Positions 29,981 through 34,714 of a DNA stretch of 64,000 nt are shown one piece after another. Position numbers and translations under genes: made by a program. The notes under the pieces were generated by a model that was not told the DNA's origin, made no database searches, and saw only the letters and a program-made list of their open reading frames with translations. Every line of letters begins with the position of its first letter. The stretch's first letter is position 1. Source of the stretch: Alphaproteobacteria bacterium SO-S41 (GTDB lineage Bacteria; Pseudomonadota; Alphaproteobacteria; Micropepsales; Micropepsaceae); assembly GCA_019670725.1 (NCBI GenBank), contig AP024629.1:3782001-3846000 (forward strand), in the 5' to 3' direction.

Positions 29981-32900
29981 TTAATCGAGCGTCGGAACGT
30001 CGTTGGCGGCGGCGTTCATCGGCTTCGCCTTGAAGTCGGCGGCAGCCTGTTTCGCGAGCTTGAGGTCGGCTTCCGGCATGCGGCCTTCCAGCGCCGTGGC
30101 GCGGGCGGCGGCGTCGGTGTCGCCCTGGACACCAGCGGCGGCGTACCACTTGTACGCTTCCACCAAGTTCACTTCGACGCCGAGGCCGCGCTCGTAGAGG
30201 ATCGCGATGTTGAACTGCGAGTCCTTCAGGCCGAGTTCGGCGGCGCCGAGGAACCACTTGGCGGCGTTCTTATAGTCGGGCTTGCCGGTCGAACCGTCGG
30301 CCAGAAGGACCGCGAGATTGTACATCGCCTTGCGGTTACCGGCGTTCGCGGCATGCTCGTACCAGATCTTGGCCTGGCCCATGTCGCGCGGCACGCCGAG
30401 GCCGCGCTCGTAGAGCACGCCCATGCGGTACTGCGCCGGGGGCAGACCGGCCTGGGCGGCACGGAGCATCCACTTGGCGGCTTCCTTGGGGTTCTTCTTG
30501 ACGCCCTCGCCATCGGCATAGCGCAGGCCAAGTTCGAACTGGGCGCGGGGGTCGCCGGCTTCGGCATCCGCGGTCAGCTTCTCGATCTTGGTCTGCGGCT
30601 TGGCTTCGGCAGGCGGCGTCGCTTCGGCGACCGGCTCGGCGGCAGGAGTCGCCGGCTCGGGCGTCGCGGCCGGCGGCTCAGGGGCCGGCGGGGTCGCTTC
30701 CGGGGCGGTGCCTTCCGGAGGCGTCGCTTCCGGCGTCGCGGCCGGGGGCGTGCCTTCGGGCTGGGCGGCCGGCTCGCCCGAGATCGGCGGGGCGGGCGGC
30801 AGCTCTTCATAGGGCTGCTCGGCCGTGGGCGCGGCAGGCTCGGCCGGGGTCTCGGCACCGACGGGCGGCGGCGCCTCGGTTCCGGCCGGCTTCTTCAAGA
30901 CGAGGAAGTAATAGAGCGCCGCGGTGATCGCGAGGACCGCCAGGAGCATCAAGGCGAGCCGCACCCAGTTGGTCTTGGTCTCCCCTTCCGATGCATCGAA
31001 GCGCGTCAGGCGATCCTTGCCCTTGGCGGAGATGACATCGGCGTCAGCAGCAGCGGCGGCCTGAGCAGCCCGGCGGGCAGCAGCGAGGAAATCGTCGGTA
31101 CGGCGGGTCGGCGGCTCGTCGGGACGGCCAAGGACTTCGGCAATCGCGGCCTCGACTTCGGGATCATGGTCGCCCGCGGGCGGCGGCGCGGGTTCGAACG
31201 CTTCGGGCGCGCGCTCGATCTCTTCCGCGGTCAGCGGCGCGAAATCGTCTTCGTCCTCGAAGGGCGCTTCGTCCTCGTCCTCGACATAAGCGACGGGCGC
31301 AGCCTTGGGCGCTTCCGGCTCATAGGCGGGAGCCGGCGGCGGCGGGGCGGCGGTGACATAGCCATCGTCGATTCCCGCCCGGCCATGGGGCGAGAGCTCC
31401 AGCGCTTCGAGGCGGCGCATCGCCGTTTCGAGCTGGGCCTGGATCGCGCCCAGCATGTCGCGCTGGCGCTTCTCGCCGGCTTCGACGCGCGTGCCGACCC
31501 CGCGCAGCGCCTGCTCGACCGTCGAGGCGGCTTCGCCCTGGCGGCGCTCAGCATGGCCGATCTGGACGGCCAGCGTTTGCAGGTTCTGCTCGATGGTCGC
31601 GACGCGGCCGAGCGTTTCCGTATCGGGCGTTGCGACCGGCGCGGGCGGCGGTGTCGCGACGAATTCCTCGAGGCGGCGGCGCAGTTCGTGCTGGCCGTTG
31701 GCGGCTTCTTCCGCGAGGGCGCGGACCGATGCGAGTTCAGGACCCGCGGTCTCACGGCCACCGGACGCGGCGGCAGCTTCGGCAGCCTTGCGCACGGTGG
31801 CGAGTTCGGCGGCGAGCGAGTCCAGGCGATCGGCCTGGGCCAGCATGCCCGTCGAGGTATCGGTGACCGCGATGCGCAGCGTGTCGATATCGCCCTTGCC
31901 CGCAAAGGACTGCGGCTCATGGCTGCGGCGTTCGAGCGTCTCGAGGCGACGCGCATAGTCAGAGAGCGCACCAAGCTGCGGCTTGATGCCGCCGAGTTCC
32001 GCGGCGAGCGCGTCGAGCTGCGGCTCGAAAGCGCCGGCGCGGGCGACGGCATCCTCGATCTGCGGCTTCAACTTGCCGACTTCGGCGAGCAGCGTGCCGA
32101 ATTGCGGCTTCAGCTCACCGAGCTGGGCGCCGACATCGTCGATCTGGGGCTTCAGCCCGCCGAGTTCAGCCTTCGCGGCATCGAGCTGGGGCTTCAGGCC
32201 ACCGATTTCGGTCTTCAGCGCATCAAGCTGGGGCTTCATCCCGCCGAGTTCGGCACTGACCGCGTCGAGCTGCGGCTTGAAGGCGCCGATCTGCGACAGC
32301 ATCGCGCCGAGCTGGGGTTTCAGCTCGCCGAGCTGTGCGCCGACATCATCGAGCTGCGGCTTGAAGGCGGCCATTTCGGCCGAGACGGCATCGACCTTCG
32401 GCGCGAAGGTGCCGAGCTGCGCCGCGACGGCTTCACGGACGCGGGCGGCGAGACGGCTCTCGGCGTCCGACAGGCGCGCATCGGCGGCTCGGAGCGCTTC
32501 GTCGACGAGGCCGAAGCGCCCGTCCTGCTGGCGGGTGCGGGCGTCGAGCGCCTTCAGCGCATCGTCATGGGTCTTGAAGAGATTGGAGTGGGCCTGGAGC
32601 GACGTGCCGAACGACTTCAGGTCGTCGCTGTGTGCCTTCAGCGCCAGCGCGGCCTGGGCCGGCTCGTTGCCGCGTTCTTCCCAGCGCTGGACCAACTTGA
32701 CCAGCGTGTCCTTGAGATTGCGCGCGGTTTCGGCGTTGCGGGTTTCGAGCGCGCCGAGGCGGTCGGCCAGCGCGCGGTACTCGCCGTCCTGGCGGCCGTT
32801 GACCTGCGCCAGCGCGTTCTCGGCGGTGCGCGACGACGAGGCATGGCGGCCGTCGAGGTCGCTCAGCTTTTCGGTGAGGCCCTTAATCTCGGCCGCATGC

Positions 32901-34171
32901 GCCGCCGTGACATCCTCGATCGAGCGCTTGAGATCGCGCGCCGCGGAGGTCTGGCGTTCCTCGAAGCCGGCGAGACGCTCGGAGATCGCCGACAGCGAGG
33001 CGTTGACCGCGGTCGCGGCTTCGCCAGCGCGGGTTTCGGACTGCGCCGCCTGCGCCTTCAGCGAGGCGAGCGACTGCTCGAAGGTCTCGAAGGCGCCGCG
33101 GGTACGGTCCTGATCGGCGGCGGAAAGCGCCTGGCGGCTTTCGAACGACGCGAGACGTTCGGCGACCTGGGCGAGCGAGGTGGAGAGTTCGCGCGCGATT
33201 TCATGCGCGCGGGTCTCGGCATTGCTCGCCTGGCCGCGCAGGTGATTGACGGTCGCCTCGAGCGAGGCGAGCGTTTCGCGCGAGCGGTTGGTTTCCTGGC
33301 CGAACAGGCCATGGCGTTCGTCGAGCCCGTTGAGGCGACCCGAGAGGGCCGCGAAGGACGAGGTGACGGCGTTGGCCGATTCCAGCGCGCGCGCCTCGGC
33401 GGCGGCGAACTGGCGCTTCATGTCGGCGAAGGTCGAGTCGATCGCGGTCGCCTGCGAGCCTTCCAGCGCGGTCATGCGCTGGGCGATCGCGGCGAAGGCC
33501 TTTTCGAGTTCGGTGCCGGAGGTCGTGGCGCGCGACGAGGCTTCGTCGATGCGGCCCTTCAGTTCGGAGATCGCGGTCTGGACCGCGGGGAGGACCTGGG
33601 CCGCGGCGATGGCGCTTTCGGCCTTGCCGGAGGTTTCCTCGAGCCGGGCGACCATACCGTCGACCGAGCGCTCGAGCGATTCGAACGCCGAGGTCTGTTC
33701 ACGGGTCGAGGCGTCGAAGGCTTCTGCCGCGGCGCGCATCGCGCTGTCGGCGGCCGATTTCAGCCGGTCGGCCGATTCGAGCCGGTCGGCGACCGCTGCG
33801 ACGGCCTTGTCGAGCTGCTCGACCGCCATGAACTGGCGCCGTTCGGCATCCTCGATCCGGCGGTGCAGATCGCTGAGCGAACCGCCCCCGCCGCCGCCCT
33901 GATCGGCATAGCCATAGGCCGGGTCGCGCGGGCGATTGCCCGGGACGCGGCTGTAATAAGACGTATCGTCGCGACGCTGATAACCCGCGCTCATGTCGGC
34001 GGCTCCTTGCTCGGCTGGCGGCCGTTCTGGCTCCAGTCCGGCGGTACGATCCGTGATGATGGCCTCAAGCCACTCGCCGAGGGGCACGCCGGCGCGCTCT
34101 GCGGCGCGGCGTGCCGCATCGCGAAGCTCTGGCGGAATGCCCGACACGTTCCACGGAACGCGCGATCTCAT
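29981..34171 (-). CDS. PodJ-like polar localization protein (coiled-coil, TM, Sel1 repeats)
   Basis: A 1396-residue protein with the order seen in PodJ of Caulobacter. Residues 1-45 carry a conserved NVSGIPPELRDAARRAAERA segment. About residues 90-900 are coiled coil, including ten 14-residue repeats at about 603-742. An acidic linker leads to one membrane segment (LALMLLAVLAITAALYYFLV, about residues 1068-1091) preceded by basic residues. A Pro/Ala/Glu-rich periplasmic stalk follows, then four Sel1-like repeats (about 1205-1375). PodJ organises a cell pole, recruiting stalk and pilus or division factors; I infer a similar role. A peptidoglycan-binding end, present in PodJ, is not seen. A CtrA-type box lies upstream at 34304-34318. 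Confidence 0.85.
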   Translation of the reverse strand: MRSRVPWNVSGIPPELRDAARRAAERAGVPLGEWLEAIITDRTAGLEPERPPAEQGAADMSAGYQRRDDTSYYSRVPGNRPRDPAYGYADQGGGGGGSLSDLHRRIEDAERRQFMAVEQLDKAVAAVADRLESADRLKSAADSAMRAAAEAFDASTREQTSAFESLERSVDGMVARLEETSGKAESAIAAAQVLPAVQTAISELKGRIDEASSRATTSGTELEKAFAAIAQRMTALEGSQATAIDSTFADMKRQFAAAEARALESANAVTSSFAALSGRLNGLDERHGLFGQETNRSRETLASLEATVNHLRGQASNAETRAHEIARELSTSLAQVAERLASFESRQALSAADQDRTRGAFETFEQSLASLKAQAAQSETRAGEAATAVNASLSAISERLAGFEERQTSAARDLKRSIEDVTAAHAAEIKGLTEKLSDLDGRHASSSRTAENALAQVNGRQDGEYRALADRLGALETRNAETARNLKDTLVKLVQRWEERGNEPAQAALALKAHSDDLKSFGTSLQAHSNLFKTHDDALKALDARTRQQDGRFGLVDEALRAADARLSDAESRLAARVREAVAAQLGTFAPKVDAVSAEMAAFKPQLDDVGAQLGELKPQLGAMLSQIGAFKPQLDAVSAELGGMKPQLDALKTEIGGLKPQLDAAKAELGGLKPQIDDVGAQLGELKPQFGTLLAEVGKLKPQIEDAVARAGAFEPQLDALAAELGGIKPQLGALSDYARRLETLERRSHEPQSFAGKGDIDTLRIAVTDTSTGMLAQADRLDSLAAELATVRKAAEAAAASGGRETAGPELASVRALAEEAANGQHELRRRLEEFVATPPPAPVATPDTETLGRVATIEQNLQTLAVQIGHAERRQGEAASTVEQALRGVGTRVEAGEKRQRDMLGAIQAQLETAMRRLEALELSPHGRAGIDDGYVTAAPPPPAPAYEPEAPKAAPVAYVEDEDEAPFEDEDDFAPLTAEEIERAPEAFEPAPPPAGDHDPEVEAAIAEVLGRPDEPPTRRTDDFLAAARRAAQAAAAADADVISAKGKDRLTRFDASEGETKTNWVRLALMLLAVLAITAALYYFLVLKKPAGTEAPPPVGAETPAEPAAPTAEQPYEELPPAPPISGEPAAQPEGTPPAATPEATPPEGTAPEATPPAPEPPAATPEPATPAAEPVAEATPPAEAKPQTKIEKLTADAEAGDPRAQFELGLRYADGEGVKKNPKEAAKWMLRAAQAGLPPAQYRMGVLYERGLGVPRDMGQAKIWYEHAANAGNRKAMYNLAVLLADGSTGKPDYKNAAKWFLGAAELGLKDSQFNIAILYERGLGVEVNLVEAYKWYAAAGVQGDTDAAARATALEGRMPEADLKLAKQAAADFKAKPMNAAANDVPTLD
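31946..32365 (-). repeat. Ten tandem 42-bp units encoding 14-residue repeats
   Basis: Within the PodJ-like gene the minus strand encodes ten consecutive 14-residue units of the form (F/L/M/I)KPQLDAVxAELGG. Units start every 42 bp from 32365 downward, with the last beginning at 31987. Fourteen residues are two heptads, so the block keeps the coiled-coil register. It is a coding repeat, not an intergenic one. Confidence 0.9.
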
Positions 34172-34244
34172 GCGAAGCCCTTCGACCGGTCATCCCGGCA
34201 GCAGTGGTTAAAACGCTCCGACAGCCGATGAGCCTGATCGCGCC

Positions 34245-34340
34245 GAATCACACGCGTCCGGACTCATCCCCCTCCCGGCCGTGCCACGTTGGGACAATTG
34301 GCGTTAATGACGGGTTAAAAGTTAACGCCCGCGATTAACC
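34245..34340 (-). promoter_or_regulatory. CtrA-type box and GANTC sites upstream of the PodJ-like gene
   Basis: On the minus strand TTAACCCGTCATTAAC (34303-34318) fits the full CtrA consensus TTAA-N7-TTAAC. Two GANTC sites for CcrM methylation, GAATC (34245-34249) and GACTC (34261-34265), lie between it and the start codon at 34171. A GGCGTTAA-N14-TTAACGCC inverted repeat (34300-34329) overlaps the box. The region is upstream only of the PodJ-like gene. Confidence 0.7.
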
Positions 34341-34360
34341 AAGATGAAGAGGGGTGAAGA

Positions 34361-34714
34361 TCAGGCGACGCCGGCGCGCACGAGATGCGGGCGGAGCCGG
34401 CCGGCGGCCCAGAGGCCGGCCATGCGGAAATCGCTTACCAGCGACCACAGCGGATAGGTGAAGGTCGCGGGGCGATTATGCTCGATGAAGAAATGGCTGA
34501 CCCAGGCGAAGCCGTACCCGCCGACCGCCGTGCCGATATAAAACCAGGGCGAGACAATGAGGCCGAGCGCCAGCGAGATGAAGACAAGGCCGGTGCCGGC
34601 ATAGTGCATGGCGCGGGTTTCGGGCTTGTGGTGTTCCTGCAGATAGAACGGCCAGAACGCCGCATAGGAGCGGATCGGGTGGCTGGCCCGGTTGGCGGTG
34701 GCGGCGTCGGACAT
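34361..34714 (-). CDS. Mpo1-like / DUF962 family membrane protein
   Basis: A 117-residue protein. The segment YAAFWPFYLQEHHKPETRAMHYAGT followed by a membrane pair and SHFFIEHNRPATF is characteristic of DUF962/Mpo1-like proteins; the yeast Mpo1 is a dioxygenase of 2-hydroxy fatty acid alpha-oxidation that uses iron bound by conserved histidines. The histidines of HHKPETRAMHY and SHFFIEHN are all present here. Two membrane segments (about residues 42-75) are seen. Divergent from the gene at 34815. The enzymatic role in bacteria is not established, so I name only the family. Confidence 0.85.
   Translation of the reverse strand: MSDAATANRASHPIRSYAAFWPFYLQEHHKPETRAMHYAGTGLVFISLALGLIVSPWFYIGTAVGGYGFAWVSHFFIEHNRPATFTYPLWSLVSDFRMAGLWAAGRLRPHLVRAGVA

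Follow-up and report, generated by a model that had tools for sequence, protein, structure and literature searches.

The window, as we call the whole 64-kb stretch of DNA that was analysed, carries on its minus strand a large PodJ-like gene and a neighbour that bounds the intergenic region between them:

29981..34171, minus strand: PodJ-like gene of 1396 aa, with an N-terminal motif, a coiled-coil-like middle, one predicted membrane span and four Sel1 repeats
34361..34714, minus strand: Mpo1-like gene (PF06127), the upstream neighbour on the same strand

The encoded protein has the PodJ-type layout of a coiled coil, one span and Sel1 repeats. Its N-terminal motif, PWNVxGIPPE, is conserved and common to podJ-type orthologues, with a single good match in its own genome. 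The middle matches coiled-coil families (SMC/Rad50-type), and it is these matches alone that imply the coiled coil; the one hydrophobic membrane span is predicted at about 1072-1092, and the four Sel1 repeats are putatively periplasmic. Among solved structures, the matches cover the C-terminal part and are to proteins with Sel1 repeats or to similar ones. In Caulobacter, podJ organises the new swarmer pole with a timing set by two promoters, and PodJ carries a C-terminal PF01471 peptidoglycan-binding domain. This domain is absent from the window protein and from all three family members scanned, and is present in four of the five orthologues scanned from other families (L102, L103, L104 and L109; not L108), these orthologues sharing the Sel1 part.

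Upstream of the ATG at 34171 lie a CtrA box, additional TTAA half-sites and two CcrM-type methylation sites:

34303..34318, minus strand: CtrA box TTAACCCGTCATTAAC, a direct repeat TTAAC-N6-TTAAC (equivalent to TTAA-N7-TTAAC) 147 bp upstream of the ATG, spanning -147 to -132
34322-34325 and 34335-34338, minus strand: two further TTAA half-sites beside the box, at the same offsets from it in all five genomes of the genus
34208..34211, minus strand: lone TTAA half-site at -40, found in four of the five genus genomes
34245..34249, minus strand: GATTC, a CcrM-type site at -78 inside TGATTCG, which fits the extended GcrA motif YGAKTCK
34261..34265, minus strand: GAGTC, a CcrM-type site at -94, without a counterpart there in the other four genus genomes

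The sequence-only reading of this locus had reported a full TTAA-N7-TTAAC in the minus-strand direction and two GANTC sites, all within 170 bp of the start, and each of these is borne out, the distance because the offsets from the ATG are -147, -78 and -94. The box is the single exact match to TTAA-N7-TTAAC in the window, and none of 100 shuffles contained any. TTAA itself occurs 16 times in the window, with four of these occurrences inside 34304-34338 and a fifth at 34208. GANTC is strongly depleted in the window (64 observed versus 328.7 expected), and at least two GANTC are found in 1.8% of its 189-bp stretches (1174/63811), which makes the pair a milder oddity. The palindromic (full) SciP motif was found in the upstream region of none of the five genus genomes.

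To follow the box through evolution we used 48 orthologues, drawn from the 54 of 100 genomes that had a match after leaving out six weak class-level matches (G065, G068, G074, G077, G091 and G092) and the second match of G026; the loci L043, L062 and L063 are duplicates of L017, L014 and L015, respectively. Whether orthologues keep the box had been proposed as a check, and most of them do. All five genus genomes have the exact box, at -147 to -149, and the relaxed form YTAAC-N6-TTAA is found within 250 bp upstream in 33 of the 48 orthologues, where shuffled sequence gave 0.10 on average. It is missing from the other 15, and the exact TTAA-N7-TTAAC is found in just 14 of the 48. At other spacers, the half-sites of the relaxed box occur in six of the 48 orthologues with N5, five with N8 and one with N9, and in none with N3, N4 or N7. 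Across the five genus genomes 13 of the 16 box positions are invariant, while the other three, all in the spacer, vary; family-wide, the box positions cluster at -142 to -151. The surrounding sequence is unevenly conserved in the genus, with invariant positions making up 45 of 74 from -173 to -100, 27 of 99 from -99 to -1, and 90 of the first 150 coding bases. An assignment of the box to the Mpo1-like gene was rejected: the two genes share a strand, with the Mpo1-like one further upstream, and in the genus genome L014 it was not found ahead of podJ although the box is retained.

Genes for CtrA (425 bits, cut-off 350) and GcrA (161.8 bits) are present in the 4.44-Mb genome, as is one for a methylase bearing the RAMA domain seen in CcrM. 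When its 16S gene was compared with a plasmid collection, the top full-length matches among the 15 rows listed reached 89.0% or less, and 11 records outside that list were counted above 90%. Genome-wide, the exact TTAA-N7-TTAAC gave nine matches (seven distinct places) versus four for a backward control, and the relaxed box YTAACNNNNNNTTAAS gave 11 versus nine, and we found no clear excess of the box in either form. Because of the exact count, the string by itself is weak evidence, and it is conservation and gene context that carry the case. One of the exact matches is the following:

L001:1501-1516 (G000:C1:194282-194297): exact CtrA box in the stretch that separates a PF03618 gene from hemE

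The Caulobacter replication origin has these same gene neighbours, and we therefore call the PF03618-hemE stretch Cori-like. Among exact and relaxed matches, boxes are also found at fliL-fliM and, two of them, in the fliP/flgB region, and ctrA itself has a TTAA-N7-TTAA some 150 bp upstream; the remaining places are, to our knowledge, not known CtrA targets. The podJ-like gene has the same box as the CtrA-activated flagellar promoters (fliL, fliOP/flgB), although its product is a polarity scaffold and the gene is not a flagellar operon. If the box were a chance product of TTAA-rich intergenic DNA without CtrA function, little genome-wide motif excess would be expected, which is what we see, but half-sites conserved around a variable spacer, a fixed position and the frequency of the relaxed box among orthologues (33 of 48, shuffle mean 0.10) argue so strongly the other way that we rejected a chance origin as barely credible. 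As a prediction from sequence, CtrA control of the podJ-like gene is well supported, because the box is conserved, CtrA is present and like boxes stand at classical CtrA loci. On these same grounds the CtrA part of the Caulobacter-like control by DnaA, GcrA and CtrA claimed in the sequence-only reading is supported; its further suggestion that the sites support the PodJ identification holds to the extent that the box is consistent with that identification, of which it is no proof.

The scan of 34100-34420 found neither a sigma-70 consensus promoter nor a terminator signal, and because it gave no such promoter we infer the distal core promoter from position:

34286..34291, minus strand: CAACGT, candidate -10 of the distal promoter, at -120 to -115 and invariant in all five genus genomes
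34274..34284, minus strand: zone in which the distal promoter is predicted to start transcription, at about -103 to -113, from geometry alone

The start zone was placed there because the 5' end of the box was taken to lie near -39 of the start, as the accessible text of PMC4287350 describes for Caulobacter ctrA P2, and because the conserved block ends near -100. With the box so placed, CAACGT would sit where a -10 element falls. When 37 of the 48 orthologue rows were aligned on the box, any first base being allowed, the A-A at +27/+28 from the box was enriched (0.8 and 1.4 bits), and in the genus this dinucleotide falls within the invariant CAACGT. The main rival to activation keeps the CtrA site but makes it repressive: CtrA would occupy a promoter that coincides with the box or lies immediately before it, and would silence podJ in swarmer as well as late predivisional cells. 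Such an arrangement would suit the two extra TTAA half-sites upstream of the full box in all five genus genomes, and CtrA half-sites lying over the -10 do repress in Caulobacter, as far as the available portion of PMC4287350 reports. The same portion describes full CtrA motifs as mostly activating, however, and a box at about -39 agrees both with the A-A enrichment 27-28 bp past the box 5' end and with a conserved block that stops near -100, so that we regard repression as unlikely.

Closer to the start codon, the genus departs from its relatives. The comparison within the family sets 41 rows outside the genus against the five genus genomes. For other families, a wider search gave a match in 67 of 289 genomes, of which the best 30 places were taken as loci and no others were counted from that search. 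From 27 loci read we obtained 12 other-family rows, which cover six families, several of which contribute two rows from a single genus; two of the 12 stand through the earlier copies L028 and L054. The locus L081 was left out as a misread with an incomplete locus, and 14 others (L086-L094, L096-L099 and L101) were left out as not podJ orthologues, having short open frames or several copies per genome; of the loci so excluded, L091 carries a GANTC at -8 and TTTACA is found in L094 at -64 and in L101 at -54.

An element consisting of TTTAC[AT] and a hexamer starting with TA, at -72 to -50, is present in 37 of the 41 family rows outside the genus and 11 of the 12 other-family rows, and a GANTC at -10 to -5 in 30 of the 41 and again 11 of the 12. 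In contrast, neither the proximal promoter element nor the start-codon-proximal GANTC is found in any of the five genus genomes. For the promoter element, the five genus genomes versus the 41 family rows give a Fisher p of 9e-5, which is descriptive because the rows have common ancestry. Since other families have both the proximal element and the GANTC, a loss in this genus explains the pattern more simply; most of the family retains the proximal promoter, as do five of the six other families sampled. The genus has instead a fixed GATTCG at -78 to -85 (5/5) and the two extra TTAA half-sites at fixed offsets (5/5). The gene is orthologous to those of the other families by its N-terminal motif, and an upstream YTAAC-N6-TTAA is shared with two of the 12 other-family rows.

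Core-promoter GANTC sites lie at about -24 to -29 at both podJ P2 and ctrA P1 of Caulobacter. As given in the accessible parts of PMC4287350, Caulobacter podJ P1 starts at -120, has a CtrA TTAA-N6-TTAA at -49 of its start and peaks late, while P2 starts at -22, has a GANTC at -24 and a DnaA box and peaks early. The gene studied here resembles Caulobacter podJ in its distal full CtrA box and in the presence of CtrA, GcrA and CcrM in the genome, but differs from P1 in spacing (TTAAC-N6-TTAAC) and from the Caulobacter gene as a whole in having no P2-like proximal promoter, no GANTC near the ATG and no DnaA-box core in the 200 bp upstream. That core, TCCACA, was the sole string sought for DnaA, and it is absent within 200 bp upstream on either strand in all five genus genomes, so the DnaA part of the three-way control claim finds no support within these limits.

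For the GANTC part the outcome is mixed. Being private to the window sequence, the -94 site was rejected as a regulatory site; the GATTCG at -78 to -85 is kept in all five genus genomes, as the sole conserved one of the two upstream GANTC of the window, and fits the extended GcrA motif YGAKTCK, which is given in the accessible text of PMC7987155. The proximal, GANTC-bearing promoter is gone from the genus. It could still be argued that the Caulobacter control is unchanged, CtrA, GcrA/CcrM and DnaA all acting and the -78 GATTC replacing the lost proximal GANTC. The conservation of this GATTCG in five of five genomes and its match to YGAKTCK would agree with that, as would the requirement of Caulobacter podJ activity for GcrA and its GANTC sites, stated in the part of PMC3667746 available. 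Set against this, the sequence scan recognised no -35/-10 core promoter around the GATTC, TCCACA is missing within 200 bp and the proximal TTTACA promoter is missing, the latter two in all five genus genomes, and we hold unchanged control to be improbable. Elsewhere, according to the accessible portion of PMC7987155, podJ is predicted to be GcrA-regulated in most of 23 species analysed, and in a Brevundimonas gcrA mutant podJ expression is not lowered; podJ is not mentioned in the accessible portion of Brilli et al. (PMC2877005).

We consider it probable that 34172-34360 is a podJ-type promoter region in which CtrA activates a distal promoter like Caulobacter P1, the proximal P2-like promoter having been lost in the genus and podJ depending mainly on CtrA. 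Under this scheme, phosphorylated CtrA would bind the full box at -147, helped by the neighbouring TTAA half-sites, and would cover the -35 zone of the distal promoter, whose start is predicted near -108. CtrA would then activate podJ at the predivisional stage, in the manner of P1 in Caulobacter. The proximal promoter of the ancestor (TTTACA...TA, with GANTC beside the ATG), similar in position to Caulobacter P2, would have been lost in the genus, and with it lost, podJ here should therefore rely mainly on CtrA; the GATTC at -78, in the predicted leader, would be the remaining candidate for CcrM or GcrA input. What we observed directly is the sequences, how they are conserved and which regulators the genome encodes; it is from these and from position that we infer CtrA binding, activation over repression, the start site and the timing.

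A bolder form of this reading, which we put forward tentatively and find somewhat less than even in likelihood, is a genus-wide rewiring in which the methylation-linked proximal podJ promoter was discarded and podJ was handed to a reinforced CtrA promoter, made up of the full box and two half-sites at fixed offsets, together with a newly fixed leader GATTC, polarity then being set by CtrA alone. If true, this would have removed the early wave of podJ transcription known from Caulobacter. A genus that has CtrA, GcrA and CcrM but no proximal podJ promoter would offer a natural experiment on the need for both podJ transcription waves, and the footprint of a distal CtrA box, a proximal TTTACA promoter and a start-codon GANTC could be used to recognise podJ promoters in uncultured alphaproteobacteria. 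In the accessible portions of open-access papers on podJ with CtrA, GcrA or GANTC, we found no account of a podJ promoter without the proximal element; the one-promoter podJ layout appears to be new, and the CtrA box itself is of an already known kind.

Several further observations were made on these promoters. A GANTC almost at the ATG of the podJ-like gene (-6 to -8), accompanied by TTTACA around -56 to -64, is conserved across families, being found at L073, L074, L077-L080, L082-L084, L095, L100 and most family loci, with the GANTC downstream of the predicted start. At L095 and L100, two genomes of one family, a CtrA-like half-site pair, TTAACCACRCGTTTACAC, at about -75 to -55 overlaps the proximal -35. 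The string AACGTGGC, located downstream of a TTAAC, occurs both in the region upstream of ctrA (L067) and in the genus's podJ region. Finally, eleven GANTC are packed into about 320 bp (L066:330-648, G000:C1) directly upstream of ccrM (L066:670-1878), compared with about one per kb in the window, and this cluster suggests CcrM or GcrA feedback on ccrM.
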